Part shown: piece by piece, positions 274-26,827 of the stretch
Layout: each line of letters starts with the position of its first letter
Position numbering within the stretch: position 1 is the first letter of the stretch
Assembly (NCBI GenBank): GCA_029227035.1
Contig: JAQXZD010000091.1
Location: 1-64,000, forward strand
Reading direction: 5' to 3'
Source of the DNA: Lachnospiraceae bacterium
GTDB lineage: Bacteria > Bacillota > Clostridia > Lachnospirales > Lachnospiraceae
DNA: 64,000 nt
The notes under the pieces: generated by a model
What the model was told of the DNA's origin: nothing
The model's input: the letters and a program-made list of their open reading frames with translations, nothing else
Databases searched by the model: none
Position numbers and translations under genes: made by a program

Positions 274-1641
274 TTACTGAATCGCATCCAATGCTTCCCG
301 GACATTCGACACTCCTACCAGCTTCATGTTGGTTCTGCATTGCACACTTGCCAGGCTCACCTTCGGCATGATGCAGACTTCAAATCCCATCTTCTGTGCT
401 TCCGACACACGCTGCTCGATCATACTAACTCCGCGCACCTCACCGCTTAAGCCCACTTCGCCAAAACAGATTGTCTTGCTGTCAATGGTGAAGTCAAGCT
501 TGCTGGACATAATAGCTAGCACAATTCCCAGATCGATTGCCGGTTCATTCATCCGAATTCCCCCTGCAATATTCACATAGGCATCGCAGTCCGACAGTTG
601 CAGCCCGGCTCTTTTCTCCAGCACTGCCATCAGCAGATTAACCCGGTTAAAGTCTGTTCCGGTTGCAGTTCTCCTTGGATTATTAAAATAGCTGTGGCAG
701 ACAAGTGCCTGAATCTCCAGAAGTATCGGACGGGTTCCCTCGATGGAACATGCCACAATAGAACCGGATGCATTTTCCGGCTTGCCGCTCAGCATGTACT
801 CGGACGGATTCTCCACTTCCACCAGTCCCTCGGAACGCATCTCAAATACGCCGATTTCATTGGTCGAGCCGAAACGGTTCTTCACACCGCGCAAAATCCG
901 GTAGCTCTCGTAACGGTCACCCTCAAAATAAAGTACGGTATCCACCATATGCTCCAGTACACGTGGTCCCGCCACCACGCCTTCTTTGGTCACATGTCCG
1001 ACTATAAAAACAGATATTCCCATCCCCTTGGCTATCTGCATCAGTATTGCCGTTGCCTCACGTACCTGTGACACACTTCCAGGCGCCGAAGCAACATTCT
1101 CATGATACATGGTCTGAATACTGTCGATAATGACAATCTGCGGCTTTTTCTGCTCTATCACACCGCGAATTACATCCAGATTGGTCTCGCACAAAAGTTC
1201 CAGCTTATCCGTGAAAGATCCGATACGGTTTGCCCGCATCTTAATCTGCCTCGGTGACTCTTCCCCGGACACATACAATACCGACACGTTCCGGTCGGAC
1301 AGATTCTTGCATACCTGCAATAAAAGTGTTGATTTGCCAATTCCCGGATCTCCACCAACAAGAACGAGGGAGCCTTTTACAACTCCCCCGCCCAAGACGC
1401 GATCCAATTCCGGCATGGAGGTACTGATTCTGTCCTCCTCCGATTCCTCGATTGCAGAAAGAGGAACCGGCTTTGCCTCTGATGCCGGCTTCATCTTACC
1501 GGATGCACTGAGAGACTTTTTGTCTACCAGTTCTTCTACAAAGGTATTCCACTCCCTGCAGCCCGGACATTGTCCCATCCATTTTGCTGATTCGTATCCG
1601 CAGTTCTGACAAAAAAACACACTGGTTTTCGTTTTTGCCAT
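274..1641 (-). CDS. radA: DNA repair protein RadA
   Basis: N-terminal Cx2C...Cx2C zinc finger (FFCQNCGYESAKWMGQCPGC), Walker A GGDPGIGKST, KNRFGSTNEIGVF motif, Lon-like C-terminus. Confidence 0.97.
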   Translation of the reverse strand: MAKTKTSVFFCQNCGYESAKWMGQCPGCREWNTFVEELVDKKSLSASGKMKPASEAKPVPLSAIEESEEDRISTSMPELDRVLGGGVVKGSLVLVGGDPGIGKSTLLLQVCKNLSDRNVSVLYVSGEESPRQIKMRANRIGSFTDKLELLCETNLDVIRGVIEQKKPQIVIIDSIQTMYHENVASAPGSVSQVREATAILMQIAKGMGISVFIVGHVTKEGVVAGPRVLEHMVDTVLYFEGDRYESYRILRGVKNRFGSTNEIGVFEMRSEGLVEVENPSEYMLSGKPENASGSIVACSIEGTRPILLEIQALVCHSYFNNPRRTATGTDFNRVNLLMAVLEKRAGLQLSDCDAYVNIAGGIRMNEPAIDLGIVLAIMSSKLDFTIDSKTICFGEVGLSGEVRGVSMIEQRVSEAQKMGFEVCIMPKVSLASVQCRTNMKLVGVSNVREALDAIQ

Positions 1642-1644
1642 ATA

Positions 1645-2058
1645 TTATCTCTTTTCTACTTTAATATCCACGGCATCTGCGCCCTCCAGTTCCACGCTGA
1701 GGCTCAGCTTGCCGCCAAGATTTGTCTTCATGGTTCCTGCCGACTTTCCGTCAATGGTAATCTCATATTCCGTCTCCTCGGAAAGCTCTAAGGTAATCTG
1801 TGCATCCTCCGGTCCTTCCACCGTAAACGCAACCGTATTCTCATCCTGCCGGAAATTGGTTACCGCAGTTCCCGGAACGGATTCATAGACAAACAATCCA
1901 TTACGCTCCAGTTTGGTAATCTCTCCAAATGTCTTAACTTTGTAAATGTCTCCATGAAACTCATAATTATCCAGCTTGGCTTTCGCACCTAATGTATAAT
2001 CTCCGAAGCTTAAAGTTCCATTCCCCTCTGTGCGAATTAATTCACTGATTGCAGCCAT
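1645..2058 (-). CDS. small beta-rich conserved protein (annotated 'endosialidase' in related genomes from memory; function unknown)
   Basis: Intact 137-aa ORF between clpC and radA, 3 bp from radA. Confidence 0.6.
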   Translation of the reverse strand: MAAISELIRTEGNGTLSFGDYTLGAKAKLDNYEFHGDIYKVKTFGEITKLERNGLFVYESVPGTAVTNFRQDENTVAFTVEGPEDAQITLELSEETEYEITIDGKSAGTMKTNLGGKLSLSVELEGADAVDIKVEKR

Positions 2059-2141
2059 GATTTATCCTCCTGTATTTTCTGTCATGTCGTAACTGCCCTA
2101 AATTAGTTACATCATTTCTATTAGCTTAAAGTATACCACTC

Positions 2142-4583
2142 TTACTCTTTCGTGACAACGATTTCCTTATTCTTTGTTGATACAATTACACTGTCTCCGG
2201 ATGCAATTTCCCCACTGATAATCTTCTCGGACAGGCGGTCTTCCACCTCCTCCTGAAGCTTTCTTCTGAGAGGCCTTGCGCCGTATTTTCTGTCATATGC
2301 TTTTTCAACGATAAGTTTCTTTGCCGCATCCCTTATGGACAGATCAATCTGAAGCTGTTCCTTACACCGTTTCTGCAGTTTTGCAGCCATAATCGTAATG
2401 ATCTGCTTCATGTCTTCTTTGTTCAATGCCCTGAATACAATGGTCTCGTCAATACGGTTCAAAAACTCCGGCTTGAAAATGCGCTTAACTTCTTCCATCA
2501 CGCTGCCCTTCATTCGCTCGTGATCCTGTTTCTCGTCCTCTTTTGCACCGAATCCAAGCTTCTTCGGCTCCACGATAGACTGCGCTCCCGCGTTGCTGGT
2601 CATGATAATAATCGTATTCTTAAAATCCACCTTTCGTCCCTGTGAATCTGTGATATGCCCGTCATCCAGTACCTGAAGCAGAATATTAAACACGTCCGGA
2701 TGGGCTTTTTCAATCTCGTCAAACAGAATCACGGAAAAAGGATTCCGTCTTACTTTTTCCGAGAGCTGTCCGCCATCCTCATGTCCCACATATCCAGGCG
2801 GTGAGCCAATCATCTTGGAAACACTGTGTTTCTCCATGTATTCGGACATATCTACCCGTATCATGGATTCCTCATTGCCAAATACCGCCTCTGCCAGCGC
2901 TTTGGAAACTTCTGTCTTTCCAACACCTGTCGGTCCCAAAAACAGGAATGAGCCAATCGGTCTGTTCGGATCCTTCAATCCTACACGGCCTCTTCTGACC
3001 GCCTTTGCCACTGCTGAGACTGCTTCCTCCTGTCCAATCACTCTCTTGTGCAGAATCTGTTCCAGTTTCTGCAGACGCACGGCCTCACTCTCCGTCAGAC
3101 GGCTGACAGGAATCTTGGTCCAGCCGGACACCACATCCGCAATCTCATTTTCGCCCACCTGTGCCGTCTTTTTTCCTGCCACACGGCGGTTTTTCCTGTT
3201 CAGCTTATCCCACGCTTCCTGAAGCTTCTCTTTCTCCTGTCTGAGTTCATGCGCTTTCTCAATATCTCCTTCGCGAAGAGATTCTTCTATCTCGGTATTT
3301 TTGTTTTGAATCTCGCTCTTTAACTCTGTCAGTTTATCATATCCATGTACCATGCCAAGCCGCATTTTTGAAGCAGCTTCATCCATGAGATCAATCGCCT
3401 TATCCGGCAAAAACCGATCCGACACATAGCGCGCGGACAGACGGACTGCTGCCTCAAGTCCTTCATCCGTAATCTCCACATGATGATGCTCCTCGTAAAG
3501 CCTGCGAAGTCCCTTTAATATCTCAACGGATTCCTCCTCGGTCGGTTCCTCCACCTGCACCGGCTGAAAGCGCCTCTCCAGTGCGGCATCTTTTTCGATA
3601 TACTTGCGGTATTCCTCTGTGGTGGTTGCACCGATTACCTGCACTTCACCTCTTGCGAGAGCCGGCTTTAAGATGTTTGACGCATCCAGCGCACCTTCCG
3701 CGCCACCGGCACCAATGATGGTATGAATCTCATCGATAAAAAGCATGACATTACCGGCATCTGCCACTTCATTGATTACTTTCTTAATCCGCTCCTCAAA
3801 TTCACCACGATATTTGGATTTTGCCACAAGGCCTGACATGTCAAGAGATACCAGTCTCTTATCCGCAACAATCTCAGGCACGGTTCCATTGACAATGCTC
3901 TGTGCAATTCCTTCAACGATTGCCGTCTTACCGACACCCGGCTCTCCAATCAGGCATGGATTGTTTTTTCCTCTCCTGCACAGAATCTGAATCACCCGTG
4001 CCGTCTCTTTTTCCCTGCCGATAACCGGATCCAGCATCCCCTGTGCCGCAAGTTTCGTTAAATCTCTGGAATAGCGATCCAGCGTCGGGGTTGCCGACTC
4101 TGCCTCTCCGCTTCTTCCGCGCTGTATCTCTTCCCTGTAATCTGCAGGATTTTCTCCCATTGCCACCAGTATATCCACAAACAGTTTCTGTGGGTTGGCA
4201 CCAAGCGTATTCAGGAGCCTGGATGCCGCGCAATCTCCATCCTTTACAATGGCCAGAAGAATATGCTCCGTTCCAATTTCACTGCTGTCAAAACGCTCCG
4301 CCATCTCCTCTGCACGTGCCAGTATCTCCTGCGCGCGCGGTGAATAGCCATCCCTGTCGGCAACGGTAATTTCCTCCCCGGTTGCCACAAGCTCCTCTAT
4401 CATCTGCTGTAAGGCTGTCAGTTCCACATTATTTGCCGCAAGAACTTCTGTGGCAACACCTGTCTGTTCCTTCAGAAGGCCTTCCAGAATATGCTCTGTT
4501 CCGATATAACTGCTGCCCTCCGCTTTTGACAGGCGTGTTGCATAACTCAATGCCTTTTTTGCTTTGTCCGTATATGGTTTCAC
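2142..4583 (-). CDS. clpC: ATP-dependent Clp protease ATP-binding subunit ClpC
   Basis: 813 aa, two Clp N repeats, two Walker A motifs ([16 protein letters not shown]), UVR-like linker, C-terminal D2-small domain. Confidence 0.96.
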
Positions 4584-21732: not shown

Positions 21733-23640
21733 TCACTTTGCTTCCTCTACACCCTTCAGTTGTACGACCGGTTTTGCCTCCTCGGCAAGCATACTCATTG
21801 GCGGTATCTGCCCGATTACATTGTCCACAAGCCAATCCATTTTCATGATGTCTTCCGGTTTCATGGCTTCGCTCTTTTCATTTCTAAGTGTTCCGTCCTG
21901 AGACCATATTTTACCGAAAAACGGAACAATATCTCCCTTCTTGATAGCACTCTTCAGGTGGTCGGACAGGCGCTTCACTCCCACCGGTACATTCTGGGAA
22001 CAGATAATGTCAACCACTCCCGCCGACATGCCCCACCAGTAATTGAGTGCCCTGCCGTCTTCATTATCCGCCGACTGATAAGAGCCTGCCAGAATACTCT
22101 GTATCATCTTCTCATAAAAAACTCCCCAGTTCCATACCGGCATCAACAGATTGACTGTCTTCCCGTTTTCAAACCGGTACAGTCCGAACTGCCGGCTTGC
22201 ATCATGCGGTGTAATCATATCCTGATCCGAAACAATATGAATATCATTCTCCCGCAGGAATTTATCCCTGTCATATTCCTTCCGCGTAGACCACTCAAGA
22301 TAAATCTTTGCCCGCGGATTCGTGCAAAGTGCCCCAAGCGCAAAGGCATTGATATTCGCTATCATTCCGTAAATCGGATAATCCGCAATATAGGCAATGC
22401 GGTCATTCTCCGCCAGCGCTCCGGCAATCATGCCCGACAAAAACTTTGCCTCATACATGCGGGCATAATAAGTACGGATATACTTATGCGGCGTGTTCAG
22501 ACTGCAATTTAAGATTTTCACATCCGGATGCTCCACCGCAACCTTAAGTGTCGGCATCATCATCTGCGGTGCAACCTCAAACACGATGTCCGCTCCCTGC
22601 CGGATTACATCATTCAAAACCTCCTCGGCACTTTCCTCCGTCACATCACTGACACAGATGGTCTCCATCTGCTCCGGGAAAGTCTCCGTCAGGTAATTTC
22701 GCCCCAGTTCATGGGCATATACCCAGTCGGATGTCTCCGGTGACTTCGGATAGAGAAATGCCACGGTAAATTTCTTGTTGGAAGAGTTCGGGAGAAGGTA
22801 ACTGAATATGTTCTTTTTCTCCCGCATATCCAGAGGATCCATGACCAGACCGACACTCTGCTCCTGTGCCAGCATGACGAATTCGTTCCAGCACTTAAGC
22901 ACACTCATGCTCAGTTCCGCATCCGACATCGCAAGAGCTTCCCGGTACCCATATACATTGATAAATGCCGTCAGCGCGTCACCGACCGTAATCGGAAGCT
23001 TGGAACCTCCACGGAATTCGAACGCCTTGGTAAAATGCAGCACCAGACTGTTAAAATCAATCCGGGTATCTTCATCCCACAGGGAAGTTGCCCCCATAAG
23101 ATTAAGCAGCTTCTCTGCCATTCCCAGCTTGGAAAACTCAATCTGGTTCACCCCGGAGATTTCGTTAAACTTCATGTATTCATAATACAGCTTAATCTCA
23201 ATATCATCCGAATACTTCGGTATCTTGCGTGTCACGAAGGCCTGCACGGAGTCCGCTTTAAAATACTTAAGGACGCTGACTCTCTTGTTTCCCTCCACCA
23301 CATAATAGCGGTTCATATACTCATATGCCTTAATCGGATCACGGATTCCCTCATTGACCTGCGCTTCCGAGAGATTGGTCCACTTGATTGCAAACTCGGT
23401 TCCCTCACCCAGAATCGGCATAAAATTCGCCGCAAAGGAATAGGTTCTTCCCATGGTAGATGTCCCTACCACGTACTCCAACGGAATCTTGACCAGCCCC
23501 ATATTCTGTTCTGTCCGGACTTCCTCCCGTGAAAGGATGTCATCAAGAACCGGGAGGTACGGAAAACGTCCACGCGCCACGCATGCTTTATATTCTTTTT
23601 TGCCCAGCTTTAATGCTTCCTGATATTCTGCTTCTCCCAT
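21733..23640 (-). CDS. ParB-like domain fused to a BMP/PnrA-type ligand-binding domain, no signal peptide
   Basis: N-terminal ParB-like block RDPIKAYEYMNRYYVVEGNKRVSVLKYFKADSVQAFVTR; C-terminal BMP fold KKFTVAFLYPKSPETSDWVYAHELG...GADIVFEVAPQ...AKFLSGMIAGAL...IAYIADYPIYG. Confidence 0.78.
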   Translation of the reverse strand: MGEAEYQEALKLGKKEYKACVARGRFPYLPVLDDILSREEVRTEQNMGLVKIPLEYVVGTSTMGRTYSFAANFMPILGEGTEFAIKWTNLSEAQVNEGIRDPIKAYEYMNRYYVVEGNKRVSVLKYFKADSVQAFVTRKIPKYSDDIEIKLYYEYMKFNEISGVNQIEFSKLGMAEKLLNLMGATSLWDEDTRIDFNSLVLHFTKAFEFRGGSKLPITVGDALTAFINVYGYREALAMSDAELSMSVLKCWNEFVMLAQEQSVGLVMDPLDMREKKNIFSYLLPNSSNKKFTVAFLYPKSPETSDWVYAHELGRNYLTETFPEQMETICVSDVTEESAEEVLNDVIRQGADIVFEVAPQMMMPTLKVAVEHPDVKILNCSLNTPHKYIRTYYARMYEAKFLSGMIAGALAENDRIAYIADYPIYGMIANINAFALGALCTNPRAKIYLEWSTRKEYDRDKFLRENDIHIVSDQDMITPHDASRQFGLYRFENGKTVNLLMPVWNWGVFYEKMIQSILAGSYQSADNEDGRALNYWWGMSAGVVDIICSQNVPVGVKRLSDHLKSAIKKGDIVPFFGKIWSQDGTLRNEKSEAMKPEDIMKMDWLVDNVIGQIPPMSMLAEEAKPVVQLKGVEEAK

Positions 23641-23811
23641 ATTTTCTCCTTTTTTACAAAAAAATCAAATTTATGTCACTTTCTTTATTCCAATTTTAGC
23701 ACATTTGTGGTATGATACCAATATCAGGTGAAAAATTTTAAGATTTTCTTTGCTTATTTTGCAATCTTTGTTATAATGGAGAAGGGAAATAGGTACTACG
23801 GAGGATAATCT

Positions 23812-24393
23812 ATGAAAAATGTCACCAGAGAACAAGCCGATATCATCGGTGAAGTTGCTAACATATGTACGGGTTCAGCAGCCACGGCTCTCAGCGTGAT
23901 CATCAATCGTAAGACAAACATCACCACCCCTGTGGTAGAGGTACTCTCCAAGGAGGATGCTTTAGAGAGTGATGATCATATTCTGGTTAAAGTGCCTTAT
24001 ACAAAGGGACTTGACGGAACCAATCTCATTGTCTTGAAATGCAATGACGCTTTAGTGATTGCCAATCTGATGATGGGCGGGAACGGGACAGACATATCCG
24101 GTATGCAGCTTGACGAGATTGCCTTATCGGCAGTTTCCGAAGCAATGAACCAGATGTGTGGTGCTATCGCCACTTCCATGGCGTCCATTTTAGGGACACC
24201 TACAGATATTGGTTTTCCGCTGATTAATTCAAAGGGACATAAGACTTTTGAGATACCGGATGAGTTGTGTAACGGAACCGATATTGTCAAGGTTACCTTT
24301 CAACTGACGGTTGAAGGTTTGATTGACAGCGAATTACTTCAGCTGTATCCGCTCAGCATTGTGAAGCAGATTATAAAACAGGAGGATATATAA
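23812..24393 (+). CDS. CheC/FliY-N-type CheY phosphatase
   Basis: Two complete [D/S]x3Ex2Nx22P motifs (DIIGEVAN...P; SAVSEAMN...P); no FliN-like C-terminus. Confidence 0.86.
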   Translation: MKNVTREQADIIGEVANICTGSAATALSVIINRKTNITTPVVEVLSKEDALESDDHILVKVPYTKGLDGTNLIVLKCNDALVIANLMMGGNGTDISGMQLDEIALSAVSEAMNQMCGAIATSMASILGTPTDIGFPLINSKGHKTFEIPDELCNGTDIVKVTFQLTVEGLIDSELLQLYPLSIVKQIIKQEDI

Positions 24394-24753
24394 ATGGCAA
24401 AAATACTAATTGTTGATGACGCAGCATTTATGCGAATGATGCTCAAGGACATTCTTACCAAGGGGGGGTTTGAAATCGCCGGTGAAGCTTGTGACGGTGC
24501 GGAAGCAGTTGCGAAGTATAACGAATTAAAACCGGATCTTGTTACTCTTGATATTACTATGCCGAACAAAGACGGTATTCAGGCTCTCAAGGAAATCAAA
24601 GCCGCTGATCCAAACGCTGTATGTGTTATGTGCTCTGCAATGGGACAGCAGTCAATGGTAATCGAAGCCATTCAGAACGGTGCAAAGGATTTTATTGTAA
24701 AGCCTTTCCAGGCAGACCGTGTACTGGAGTCTCTCCATAAGGTTATTGGCTAG
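24394..24753 (+). CDS. cheY: CheY-like single-domain response regulator
   Basis: KILIVDDAAFMRMMLKDIL, LVTLDITMPNKDG, CSAMGQQ, DFIVKPF; starts right after the CheC-like stop codon. Confidence 0.93.
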   Translation: MAKILIVDDAAFMRMMLKDILTKGGFEIAGEACDGAEAVAKYNELKPDLVTLDITMPNKDGIQALKEIKAADPNAVCVMCSAMGQQSMVIEAIQNGAKDFIVKPFQADRVLESLHKVIG

Positions 24754-24767
24754 GATTTATAGACATG

Positions 24768-24797
24768 AAAAAGGAGGATGCTTTATCCTCCTTTTAT
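24768..24797. terminator. Rho-independent terminator
   Basis: AAAAAGGAGGAT-gcttt-ATCCTCCTTTTatttttg. Confidence 0.85.
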
Positions 24798-24813
24798 TTT
24801 TGCATTTTTTTAT

Positions 24814-25464
24814 TTACAGTTGTCTTAACATCTCCAGCGCACGCTCCTGTATAATAAATTTCCCGTGCTCTTCCACAAATGCTTTCCGCTCCGCTCCCAC
24901 ATAAATATCCACTGCATACTCATCCGTCAGATTGGACATCTGCTTTACCTGTGTCTCTGATAAATCCGACAAATCCAGCATAAGCATGTATTCTTCTTTG
25001 TATTTGTACAAAGCACTTGGCGGAAATTCGCTCAGCATAATCTGTTTTGCAAACCTTGTCACGGTATCCAGATCCGGGAAAACAAGCGTAATCAGCACAT
25101 TTACCAGTTCCTGCGTATCTTCCTTTCCGTTTTTTGCTTCGGCACCTCCGACCTGCTGCGGCAGGGAATTCATCAGTCCACTTACAATATCCTTCAGATG
25201 CTCCATCATCTCATCCGATCCCGGATGTTCGGAAAAAGTGAGGGATAATGTATGATCCGACATAAAATCTGCACGCACAGTCTTAATTCCCAGCTCAAAC
25301 TTTGTCTCAAACTGCTGCTCTGCCAGATCAAAAATCTGATTCATAAACTCCTGTGTGCGCTCTCCATTGCTCATAATTTCTTCCAGCGTATACCCTAAAT
25401 CCGTAATTTCTTCTTCCGATATCACGCATCGGATTGTGTGTTTTCCAATTCGGGAAAATTTCAT
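24814..25464 (-). CDS. mecA: MecA-family adaptor protein
   Basis: MKFSRIGKHTIRCVISEEEITDLGYTLEEIM N-terminus, FPDLDTVTRFAKQ, SALYKYKEEYMLMLD. Confidence 0.87.
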   Translation of the reverse strand: MKFSRIGKHTIRCVISEEEITDLGYTLEEIMSNGERTQEFMNQIFDLAEQQFETKFELGIKTVRADFMSDHTLSLTFSEHPGSDEMMEHLKDIVSGLMNSLPQQVGGAEAKNGKEDTQELVNVLITLVFPDLDTVTRFAKQIMLSEFPPSALYKYKEEYMLMLDLSDLSETQVKQMSNLTDEYAVDIYVGAERKAFVEEHGKFIIQERALEMLRQL

Positions 25465-25468
25465 ACTC

Positions 25469-26071
25469 TCACCCTCTTTCTATCTTCATTTGTCTGATTT
25501 TCTGGCGGATTCTCTGCAGGGCATTGTCAATCGCCTTTGGACTCTTTTCCATCAGGCCGGCAATCTGAATATAATTATTTCCATCCAGATAAAGCTGCAA
25601 TACCTGCTTCTCCATTTTGCTTAATTTTCCAACAAGTCTCTGCCTGAATTCCTTCCAGAGCTCTCCTTCTATCACCATCTGCTCGGGACTTCTCGTCTCT
25701 CCCAGCAGTCCATCCGAAACCGAAGCCCCTGTCTCTGTCTCCTTTGCCGAAAGTGAGACATAAGAATTTAACGGCATATGTTTCTTCCGGTTTGACGCTT
25801 TCACCGCCGAGTATAACTGTCTGTTAATACACATTTCGGCAAAATGATAAAAACCGGAATTCTTATCGCTCCGATAATCCCGGACTGCCTTAAACAGTCC
25901 AATCATTCCCTCCTGTATCAGATCCTCATTCTCTCCGCCAATCAGATACATTGCCTTTGCGCAACGGCTGACAAGCGGCTTGTATTTTTCCAATATATAA
26001 TCTGTGATATCATCCTCACCCTGACGCAGCTTCTCAATGAGCTCCTCGTCAGAAAATGTATCATATTGCAT
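25469..26071 (-). CDS. sigH: RNA polymerase sigma-H factor
   Basis: YKPLVSRCAKAMYLIGGENEDLIQEGMIGLFKAVRDYR; EKQVLQLYLDGNNYIQIAGLMEKSPKAIDNALQRIRQKI; downstream of rlmB. Confidence 0.92.
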   Translation of the reverse strand: MQYDTFSDEELIEKLRQGEDDITDYILEKYKPLVSRCAKAMYLIGGENEDLIQEGMIGLFKAVRDYRSDKNSGFYHFAEMCINRQLYSAVKASNRKKHMPLNSYVSLSAKETETGASVSDGLLGETRSPEQMVIEGELWKEFRQRLVGKLSKMEKQVLQLYLDGNNYIQIAGLMEKSPKAIDNALQRIRQKIRQMKIERG

Positions 26072-26074
26072 GCA

Positions 26075-26827
26075 CTACCCCTTTTTCATTCGCTGCCGCA
26101 CAATCTCATAAGCCATCACACCCGTTGCCACAGATGCATTCAGCGAATCAATGCTTCCTTTCATGGGAATGGAAGCAACCATATCGCAGTTCTTTTTCAC
26201 CAGCGGACTGACACCGTCTCCCTCACTTCCGATGACAAGTCCTATCGGTCCGGTCAGATCCATATCATACATCACCGTTCCGTCCATGTCCGCACAGACA
26301 AACCAGAGTCCTTTTTCCTTCAGTTCCTTCATGGTATTGGAAATATTGGTCACCTTCGCCACCTTCGTATAATTGATGGCTCCCGCCGATGTCTTTGCAA
26401 CCGTCGGGGTAAGCCCCACCGCGCGGCGCTTCGGAATAATCACTCCATGCGCCCCCGCCTGGTTTGCAGTACGAATAATCGCTCCAAGATTATGTGGATC
26501 CTCAATTCCGTCCAGAATAATAATAAACGGCGGCTCTCCTTTTTCCTCCGCTTCCTTTAAAATATCCTCAACCTCCGCATAAGCGTATGCCGCACTGACC
26601 GCAATCACACCCTGATGCTTCCCGGTTTCCGAAAGCTGATCCAGCCTTTCCCTGCTCACATAATTGATAATGGTATCATGCTTTCTGGCCTCTCTGGTAA
26701 TGGTCTTGACCGGTCCATCCTGACATCCGTCCAGCACATACAGCTTATCAATCGTCTTTCCGGAACGAAACGCCTCCAAGACAGCATTCCGCCCTTCTAT
26801 TCTGTTATCTGTCATCTCGTATTCCAT
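26075..26827 (-). CDS. rlmB: 23S rRNA (guanosine(2251)-2'-O)-methyltransferase RlmB
   Basis: SpoU motifs: LDGIEDPHNLGAIIRTANQAGAHGVIIP, LVIGSEGDGVSPLV, IPMKGSIDSLNASVATGVMAYE. Confidence 0.95.
   Translation of the reverse strand: MEYEMTDNRIEGRNAVLEAFRSGKTIDKLYVLDGCQDGPVKTITREARKHDTIINYVSRERLDQLSETGKHQGVIAVSAAYAYAEVEDILKEAEEKGEPPFIIILDGIEDPHNLGAIIRTANQAGAHGVIIPKRRAVGLTPTVAKTSAGAINYTKVAKVTNISNTMKELKEKGLWFVCADMDGTVMYDMDLTGPIGLVIGSEGDGVSPLVKKNCDMVASIPMKGSIDSLNASVATGVMAYEIVRQRMKKG

Follow-up and report, generated by a model that had tools for sequence, protein, structure and literature searches.

A predicted cytoplasmic fusion of a ParB-like and a BMP domain in Lachnospiraceae, closely linked to a metallophosphoesterase

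Results

Gene and domain organisation

The 64,000-nucleotide stretch of DNA analysed here (the window) contains a minus-strand gene whose product joins a ParB/sulfiredoxin (Srx)-like domain to an acidic helical domain and a BMP domain (Table 1). It lies in a 2.4-Mb draft genome (85.6% complete) whose nearest relatives are Agathobacter and Roseburia, within the Lachnospiraceae. A first-pass annotation had given the position and 635-aa length of the frame correctly; the coding strand is minus, and the plus strand of 21733–23640 has in-frame stops. The ATG at 23640 follows AGGAG, a strong ribosome-binding site. Purifying selection acts on both halves of the gene (dN 0.11–0.19 v dS > 1) and 57 full-length relatives could be aligned, so the fusion is not a chance juxtaposition. 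The union of a ParB-like and a BMP domain in one protein, as first annotated, is thus confirmed by PF02608, the 3s99/AtzT alignment, and fold and profile support at the N-terminus.

Table 1. Features of the fusion locus, in window coordinates.
Feature	Position	Strand	Basis
Fusion gene, 635 aa: ParB/Srx-like, helical and BMP domains	21733..23640	minus	Open reading frame, conservation
Ribosome-binding site AGGAG, 5 nt ahead of ATG	23646..23650	minus	Sequence
Residues 1–44, N-terminal helices, without signal peptide or lipobox	23509..23640	minus	AlphaFold2, hydropathy
Residues 45–141, ParB/sulfiredoxin-fold domain, predicted NTP-binding	23218..23508	minus	Foldseek; hhalign with reversed control
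Residues 116–120, EGNKR, the P-motif (GxxR)	23281..23295	minus	Alignment, invariant in fusion family
Residues 146–265, acidic all-helical domain	22846..23205	minus	AlphaFold2 model, charge, hhalign
Residues 288–613, complete BMP domain, AtzT/3s99 subgroup, predicted ligand-binding	21802..22779	minus	Pfam, alignment, profile
Residues 614–635, C-terminal tail, PVVxxxGV semi-conserved	21736..21801	minus	Alignment; very end of low confidence
Partner metallophosphoesterase, 196 aa	21141..21731	minus	PF00149 (7.6e-11); junction; adjacency; co-occurrence

The AlphaFold2 model of the whole protein, built from 58 sequences (pLDDT 87.8, pTM 0.78), comprises N-terminal helices, an alpha/beta domain (41–141), a helical domain (147–258), a disordered linker (~273–287) and the BMP cup (291–613). 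In a separate model of the N-terminus these helices span residues 2–22 and 32–36.

A ParB/Srx fold at the N-terminus

Searches of the fusion protein itself with Pfam, NCBIfam and PHROG did not detect ParB; PF02195 was matched weakly in 4 of 37 relatives (E ≥ 0.026), and a PDB search with the N-terminal profile gave nothing significant. The silence of Pfam was settled by structure search, profile-profile comparison and unfused homologues. The top 50 PDB matches of the N-terminal AlphaFold2 model (pLDDT 88.8) were solely ParB/Noc/Srx/SbnI/SerK-fold proteins and close relatives (Foldseek), with Noc, ParB, PadC, KorB, sulfiredoxin (TM 0.64 over 88 columns), SbnI and the SerK homologue 1vk1 at the top; for two-domain ParB chains the rmsd is poor, and the match is to the single domain alone. 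Against 30 genuine ParB_N domains, hhalign gave E = 2e-4 (probability 46%; reversed ParB control, 0.23), with EGNKR of the fusion in register with AGERR of ParB_N. Unfused homologues matched the ParB-like core of the fusion at E = 1e-18, ParB_N at 2e-8 and PHROG ParB families at 5e-8.

G59, T60, R65 and E116–R120 are invariant across the fusion alignment, and both Box I, GT(x4)R, and the P-motif are kept. A 2025 PNAS survey of ParB-fold fusions (PMC12704722) reports that other ParB folds no longer bind NTP once the P-motif Arg is mutated, and we infer from the motifs that this domain, too, binds nucleotide. A ParB/Srx fold is therefore supported by sequence profiles and modelling. The ParB/Srx block had first been drawn over the N-terminal ~290 residues; the fold stands, through structure and profile comparison rather than the proposed PF02195 match, but the block extends only over residues ~45–141, and ~146–265 form a separate helical domain. 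The host draft genome has no match to PF02195, the canonical ParB family, which is present in 59 of 61 genomes of a phylum sample; the gap may reflect either the incomplete draft or a genuine loss.

The helical domain has a net charge of −7 (fusion-family median, −6), and its first part is common to the unfused homologues (hhalign E = 1.9e-6). No HTH was found in it by sequence, and its profile did not match ParB_N. The aligned fusions have no Box III ENxxR, central HTH or C-terminal dimerisation domain, all features of canonical ParB, and parA was not among the conserved neighbours. DNA binding, implied by the initial suggestion of a DNA-associated switch, is not supported.

The BMP domain and its pocket

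PF02608 covers residues 292–451 (E = 2e-14), and 3s99 and AtzT (6pi5) align over the whole domain (287–613, ~25% identical), so that the BMP fold first assigned to the C-terminal part holds, with both lobes complete. It had been likened to a PnrA nucleoside-type cup. The domain profile favours instead the AtzT/3s99 purine-nucleobase subgroup, at E ~1e-70 v 2e-5 to 3e-8 for the PnrA nucleoside subgroup, the values for Med, BmpA and PnrA lying at 1e-8 to 1e-5. Guanine is bound in the AtzT crystal structure (KD 110 nM; adenine, 2.5 uM), and a purine was also present in 3s99 (PMC6834077). Divergent fusions largely keep the guanine contacts of AtzT (E165 in 10/12, W194 in 9/12, S97 in 9/12) and are predicted to bind purine bases. 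In Lachnospiraceae fusions, predicted to have a changed ligand, position 165 is G in 25/25 and position 194 is K in 21/25, a replacement that points to a possibly non-purine ligand; the cup may also bind nothing. At the AtzT contacts Y/W45, S97, E165, W194 and N220, the window protein has W306, which is kept, and A357, G425, K454 and D474, so the guanine-site set is absent; columns 218/220 are gappy and poorly aligned and were excluded from the pocket comparison.

Invariant aromatic and polar residues of the BMP half include W306, W505, N533 and W535/W536, and this is the more conserved half (dN 0.11–0.14 v 0.13–0.19). No purine genes or purine riboswitch were found near the fusion, a riboswitch check of the surroundings giving tRNAs only. 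A tree built from 44 BMP domains has a 100/100 branch with all 37 fused domains on the same side, which is compatible with a single origin.

Predicted cytoplasmic location

BMP/PnrA proteins are normally exported, usually as lipoproteins. The window protein has no signal peptide or lipobox, and hydropathy revealed no hydrophobic leader among 58 fusion members: over the first 50 residues, the 15-residue value peaks at 0.50 for the window protein and does not exceed 1.32 for 58 relatives, v 2.1–3.3 for three secreted BMPs. Such a leader is present in the closest unfused BMPs, from Thermotogota (L062 and L064), and in the host's own BMP lipoprotein (L001). Neither the window flanks nor the clustered flanks of relatives contain cognate ABC permease or ATPase genes among the near neighbours. 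These results bear out the missing signal peptide and ABC genes anticipated in the first-pass annotation and support its proposal of a receptor, cytoplasmic as we predict from the N-terminus, in which a BMP cup is attached to an NTP-binding fold of the ParB/Srx type. In databases the fusion probably sits as a transporter protein.

A metallophosphoesterase accompanies the fusion

The strongest functional clue, missed in the first-pass annotation, is the neighbouring metallophosphoesterase (MPE), whose ATG lies one nucleotide past the fusion TGA. An MPE adjoins the fusion in ~80 distinct loci with flanks, with three exceptions (L056, L057, L058). In Lachnospiraceae the two genes point the same way and are often no more than 60 nt apart. 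In 11 divergent loci they converge, with a gap of ~1.1 kb in two of these; the pairing thus persists despite altered relative orientation. Clustering of all flanking ORFs found no other neighbour conserved across the divergent loci. Beside the fusion, at window positions 23812–26827, lie a divergent CheC-CheY pair and a MecA/sigma/TrmH cluster. These genes were dropped as candidate partners, being conserved only in close Roseburia/Agathobacter relatives.

Across 200 Lachnospiraceae genomes, one per genus, 75 had both fusion and MPE, none the fusion only, one the MPE only and 124 neither (Fisher P = 5e-55, a value that ignores phylogeny, genera of one family not being independent). The MPE-only genome (G065) has a partial match at G065:C167:9232-9528. 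Both genes were present even where they lay on different contigs (G013, G044, G109). By these counts the fusion is near-obligately linked to one MPE subclass. The motif I His is absent from all 84 aligned MPE copies, 70 of which have Glu there, while the other metal ligands of D-x-H, GD, GNH[DE], H and GHxH are retained. By sequence, no PDB relative of the MPE was found.

Unfused homologues and distribution

Beyond the 75 of 200 sampled Lachnospiraceae genera, full-length fusions occur in other Clostridia. Broken or frame-shifted copies were seen at L058, L060, G005:C25 and G160:C2, so the fusion is dispensable in places. No relatives were found on viral contigs. MT836456.1, an unverified, unannotated scaffold from human feces labelled 'Bacteriophage sp.', has a full-length fusion (L158) at 1639–3540 (38% identity), and is probably bacterial rather than phage.

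A profile search found unfused ParB-like homologues of ~315 aa in other Bacillota. In all 13 full-length cases an MPE of the same family adjoins the unfused protein; none lies beside six short (<200 aa) matches. Plasmids of Tsukamurella (an actinobacterium) and Cetobacterium (a fusobacterium) carry the pair after sugar ABC genes and glycogen phosphorylase, respectively, with different C-terminal extensions. We set aside a ParB-like protein on a Rubrobacter plasmid, since the MPE lying 3 kb from it is of another type with a canonical DxH. Because MPEs of this family stand beside unfused forms not only in other Bacillota but also in one actinobacterium and one fusobacterium, we infer that the MPE and ParB-like protein are the older unit and that the BMP cup looks like a Clostridia-specific addition.

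Among the unfused pairs of other Bacillota (L094–L098, L104–L111), the ParB-like proteins of L094–L098 show a weak DUF4032-like region together with a Cys cluster that is conserved at the C-terminus and resembles Fer4 in L098, which suggests a metal or Fe-S site. In several lineages, unfused pairs (L099, L100, L121, L123, L124) lie near sugar-related genes, namely sugar ABC and amylase, glycogen phosphorylase, a solute-binding-like protein and a NagA-like amidohydrolase, the last two recognised by eye. This neighbourhood may offer a clue to what the MPE acts on; since the contexts differ by lineage, we leave sugar metabolism as a lead.

Discussion

Our preferred reading, held at a little under even confidence, is that the fusion acts in the cytoplasm to regulate its partner MPE in response to a metabolite. 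The BMP domain would be an intracellular cup that closes around a small, purine-like molecule; this would be a purine nucleobase in the divergent Clostridia and a changed ligand in Lachnospiraceae. The linker would relay closure to the ParB/Srx-type domain, where nucleotide would bind through GT...R and EGNKR, and the ParB-like/helical part would dock on the MPE and set its activity or substrate access, control running from the fusion to the phosphoesterase. We favour this reading because of the MPE adjacency, the genome-by-genome co-presence, a pairing that survives changes of orientation and recurs with the unfused form, the AtzT residues kept in divergent fusions, the invariant P-motif Arg and the mostly retained MPE metal ligands. 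As the unfused homologue, which has no BMP domain, is paired with the MPE all the same, the cup may be accessory. More tentatively, a hitherto undescribed signalling pair inside the cell may span several phyla, in which a ParB/Srx-fold nucleotide-binder controls a dedicated MPE; Clostridia would have captured an extracellular purine cup, making the MPE answer to a cytoplasmic metabolite.

The unfused forms lend themselves to another reading, in which small molecules are phosphorylated by the ParB/Srx domain, a SerK-like kinase, and dephosphorylated by the MPE, with the BMP domain a sensor of substrate or product. They carry DGNHR or DGHHR and match the model of the ADP-dependent serine kinase SerK at 6.5e-4 (SerK structures weakly, E 0.3); SbnI and 1vk1 are among the fold matches of the fusion, and SerK itself was long annotated as ParB (PMC5120207). 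We nevertheless regard such a kinase/phosphatase pair as unlikely, given that the SerK similarity is weak, that serine or cysteine genes are absent nearby, and that the invariant DFD of the unfused forms has become SFA and the motif EGNKR in the fusions, with loss of likely catalytic acids. If the putative catalytic role of DFD is right, its replacement would argue for a regulatory ParB-like domain in the fusion rather than a kinase. Regulation of the phosphoesterase could also proceed with a BMP domain that is dead or purely structural in Lachnospiraceae, where the guanine-contact residues are lost, yet the stronger conservation of the BMP half and its many invariant aromatic and polar residues, typical of a working pocket, make this distinctly improbable.

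A ParB-like CTP/ATP-gated switch acting on DNA has in its favour that the N-terminus matches ParB and Noc best in structure and that LacI-type regulators such as PurR likewise join a periplasmic-binding-protein cup to DNA binding. An acidic helical domain lacking a detectable HTH or a profile match to ParB_N, the absence of Box III and a standing partner that is MPE, not ParA, leave it with very little probability. Finally, BMP similarity, and a host whose other BMP genes are ordinary, one a lipoprotein, would suit a transport solute-binding protein with a lost signal peptide or a wrong start. This is largely refuted, and we give it almost no credence: the ribosome-binding site is strong, the N-terminus is fixed and leaderless in 58 members, ABC genes are absent among the near neighbours, and the fused BMPs keep to their own side of the 100/100 branch.

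Each part of the system is of a known kind, while the combination and its obligate partner appear undescribed; in the open-access literature we found neither a ParB-BMP fusion nor its pairing with the MPE described. The fusion resembles the AtzT/3s99 subgroup of BMP/PnrA (PF02608) in its complete BMP domain, and differs in its predicted cytoplasmic location, ParB-like domain, lack of an ABC partner and, in Lachnospiraceae, replaced guanine-site residues. With the ParB-CTPase-fold fusions of the PNAS survey, which was built on PF02195, it shares the ParB/Srx fold, the GxxR P-motif and a lineage-specific partner domain, but it is too divergent for PF02195, has no visible Box III and is not tied to mobile elements; the survey's main text names no BMP or periplasmic-binding partner (PMC12704722). 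The free-serine kinases SerK and SbnI and sulfiredoxin have the same fold, and SerK shares DGHHR/DGNHR with the unfused homologues; the fusion differs in weak sequence similarity, loss of the acidic residues of the unfused forms, its MPE partner, and its helical and BMP domains. Like the proposed fusion sensor, LacI-family proteins such as PurR use a cytoplasmic periplasmic-binding-protein cup to sense metabolites, but PurR has an HTH where the fusion has a ParB-like domain, no HTH that we found and a linked phosphoesterase gene. Med, an activator of comK (PDB 2hqb), is a BMP-family protein annotated as regulatory rather than transport; it is distant (profile E 1e-8) and has no ParB-like domain. 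The partner has most metal-binding motifs of calcineurin-like metallophosphoesterases (PF00149, YfcE-like), but lacks the motif I His and has no PDB relative by sequence.

ParB-fold domains are increasingly seen as general NTP switches, and surveys based on PF02195 would overlook this divergent branch. The fixed ParB-like/MPE pair is a concrete candidate for an output of the ParB fold other than DNA, and its predicted ligand, NTP and partner are open to direct test with purified proteins. In the BMP fusion, an exported substrate-binding domain would have been re-used as an internal sensor, one that is common in gut Lachnospiraceae.
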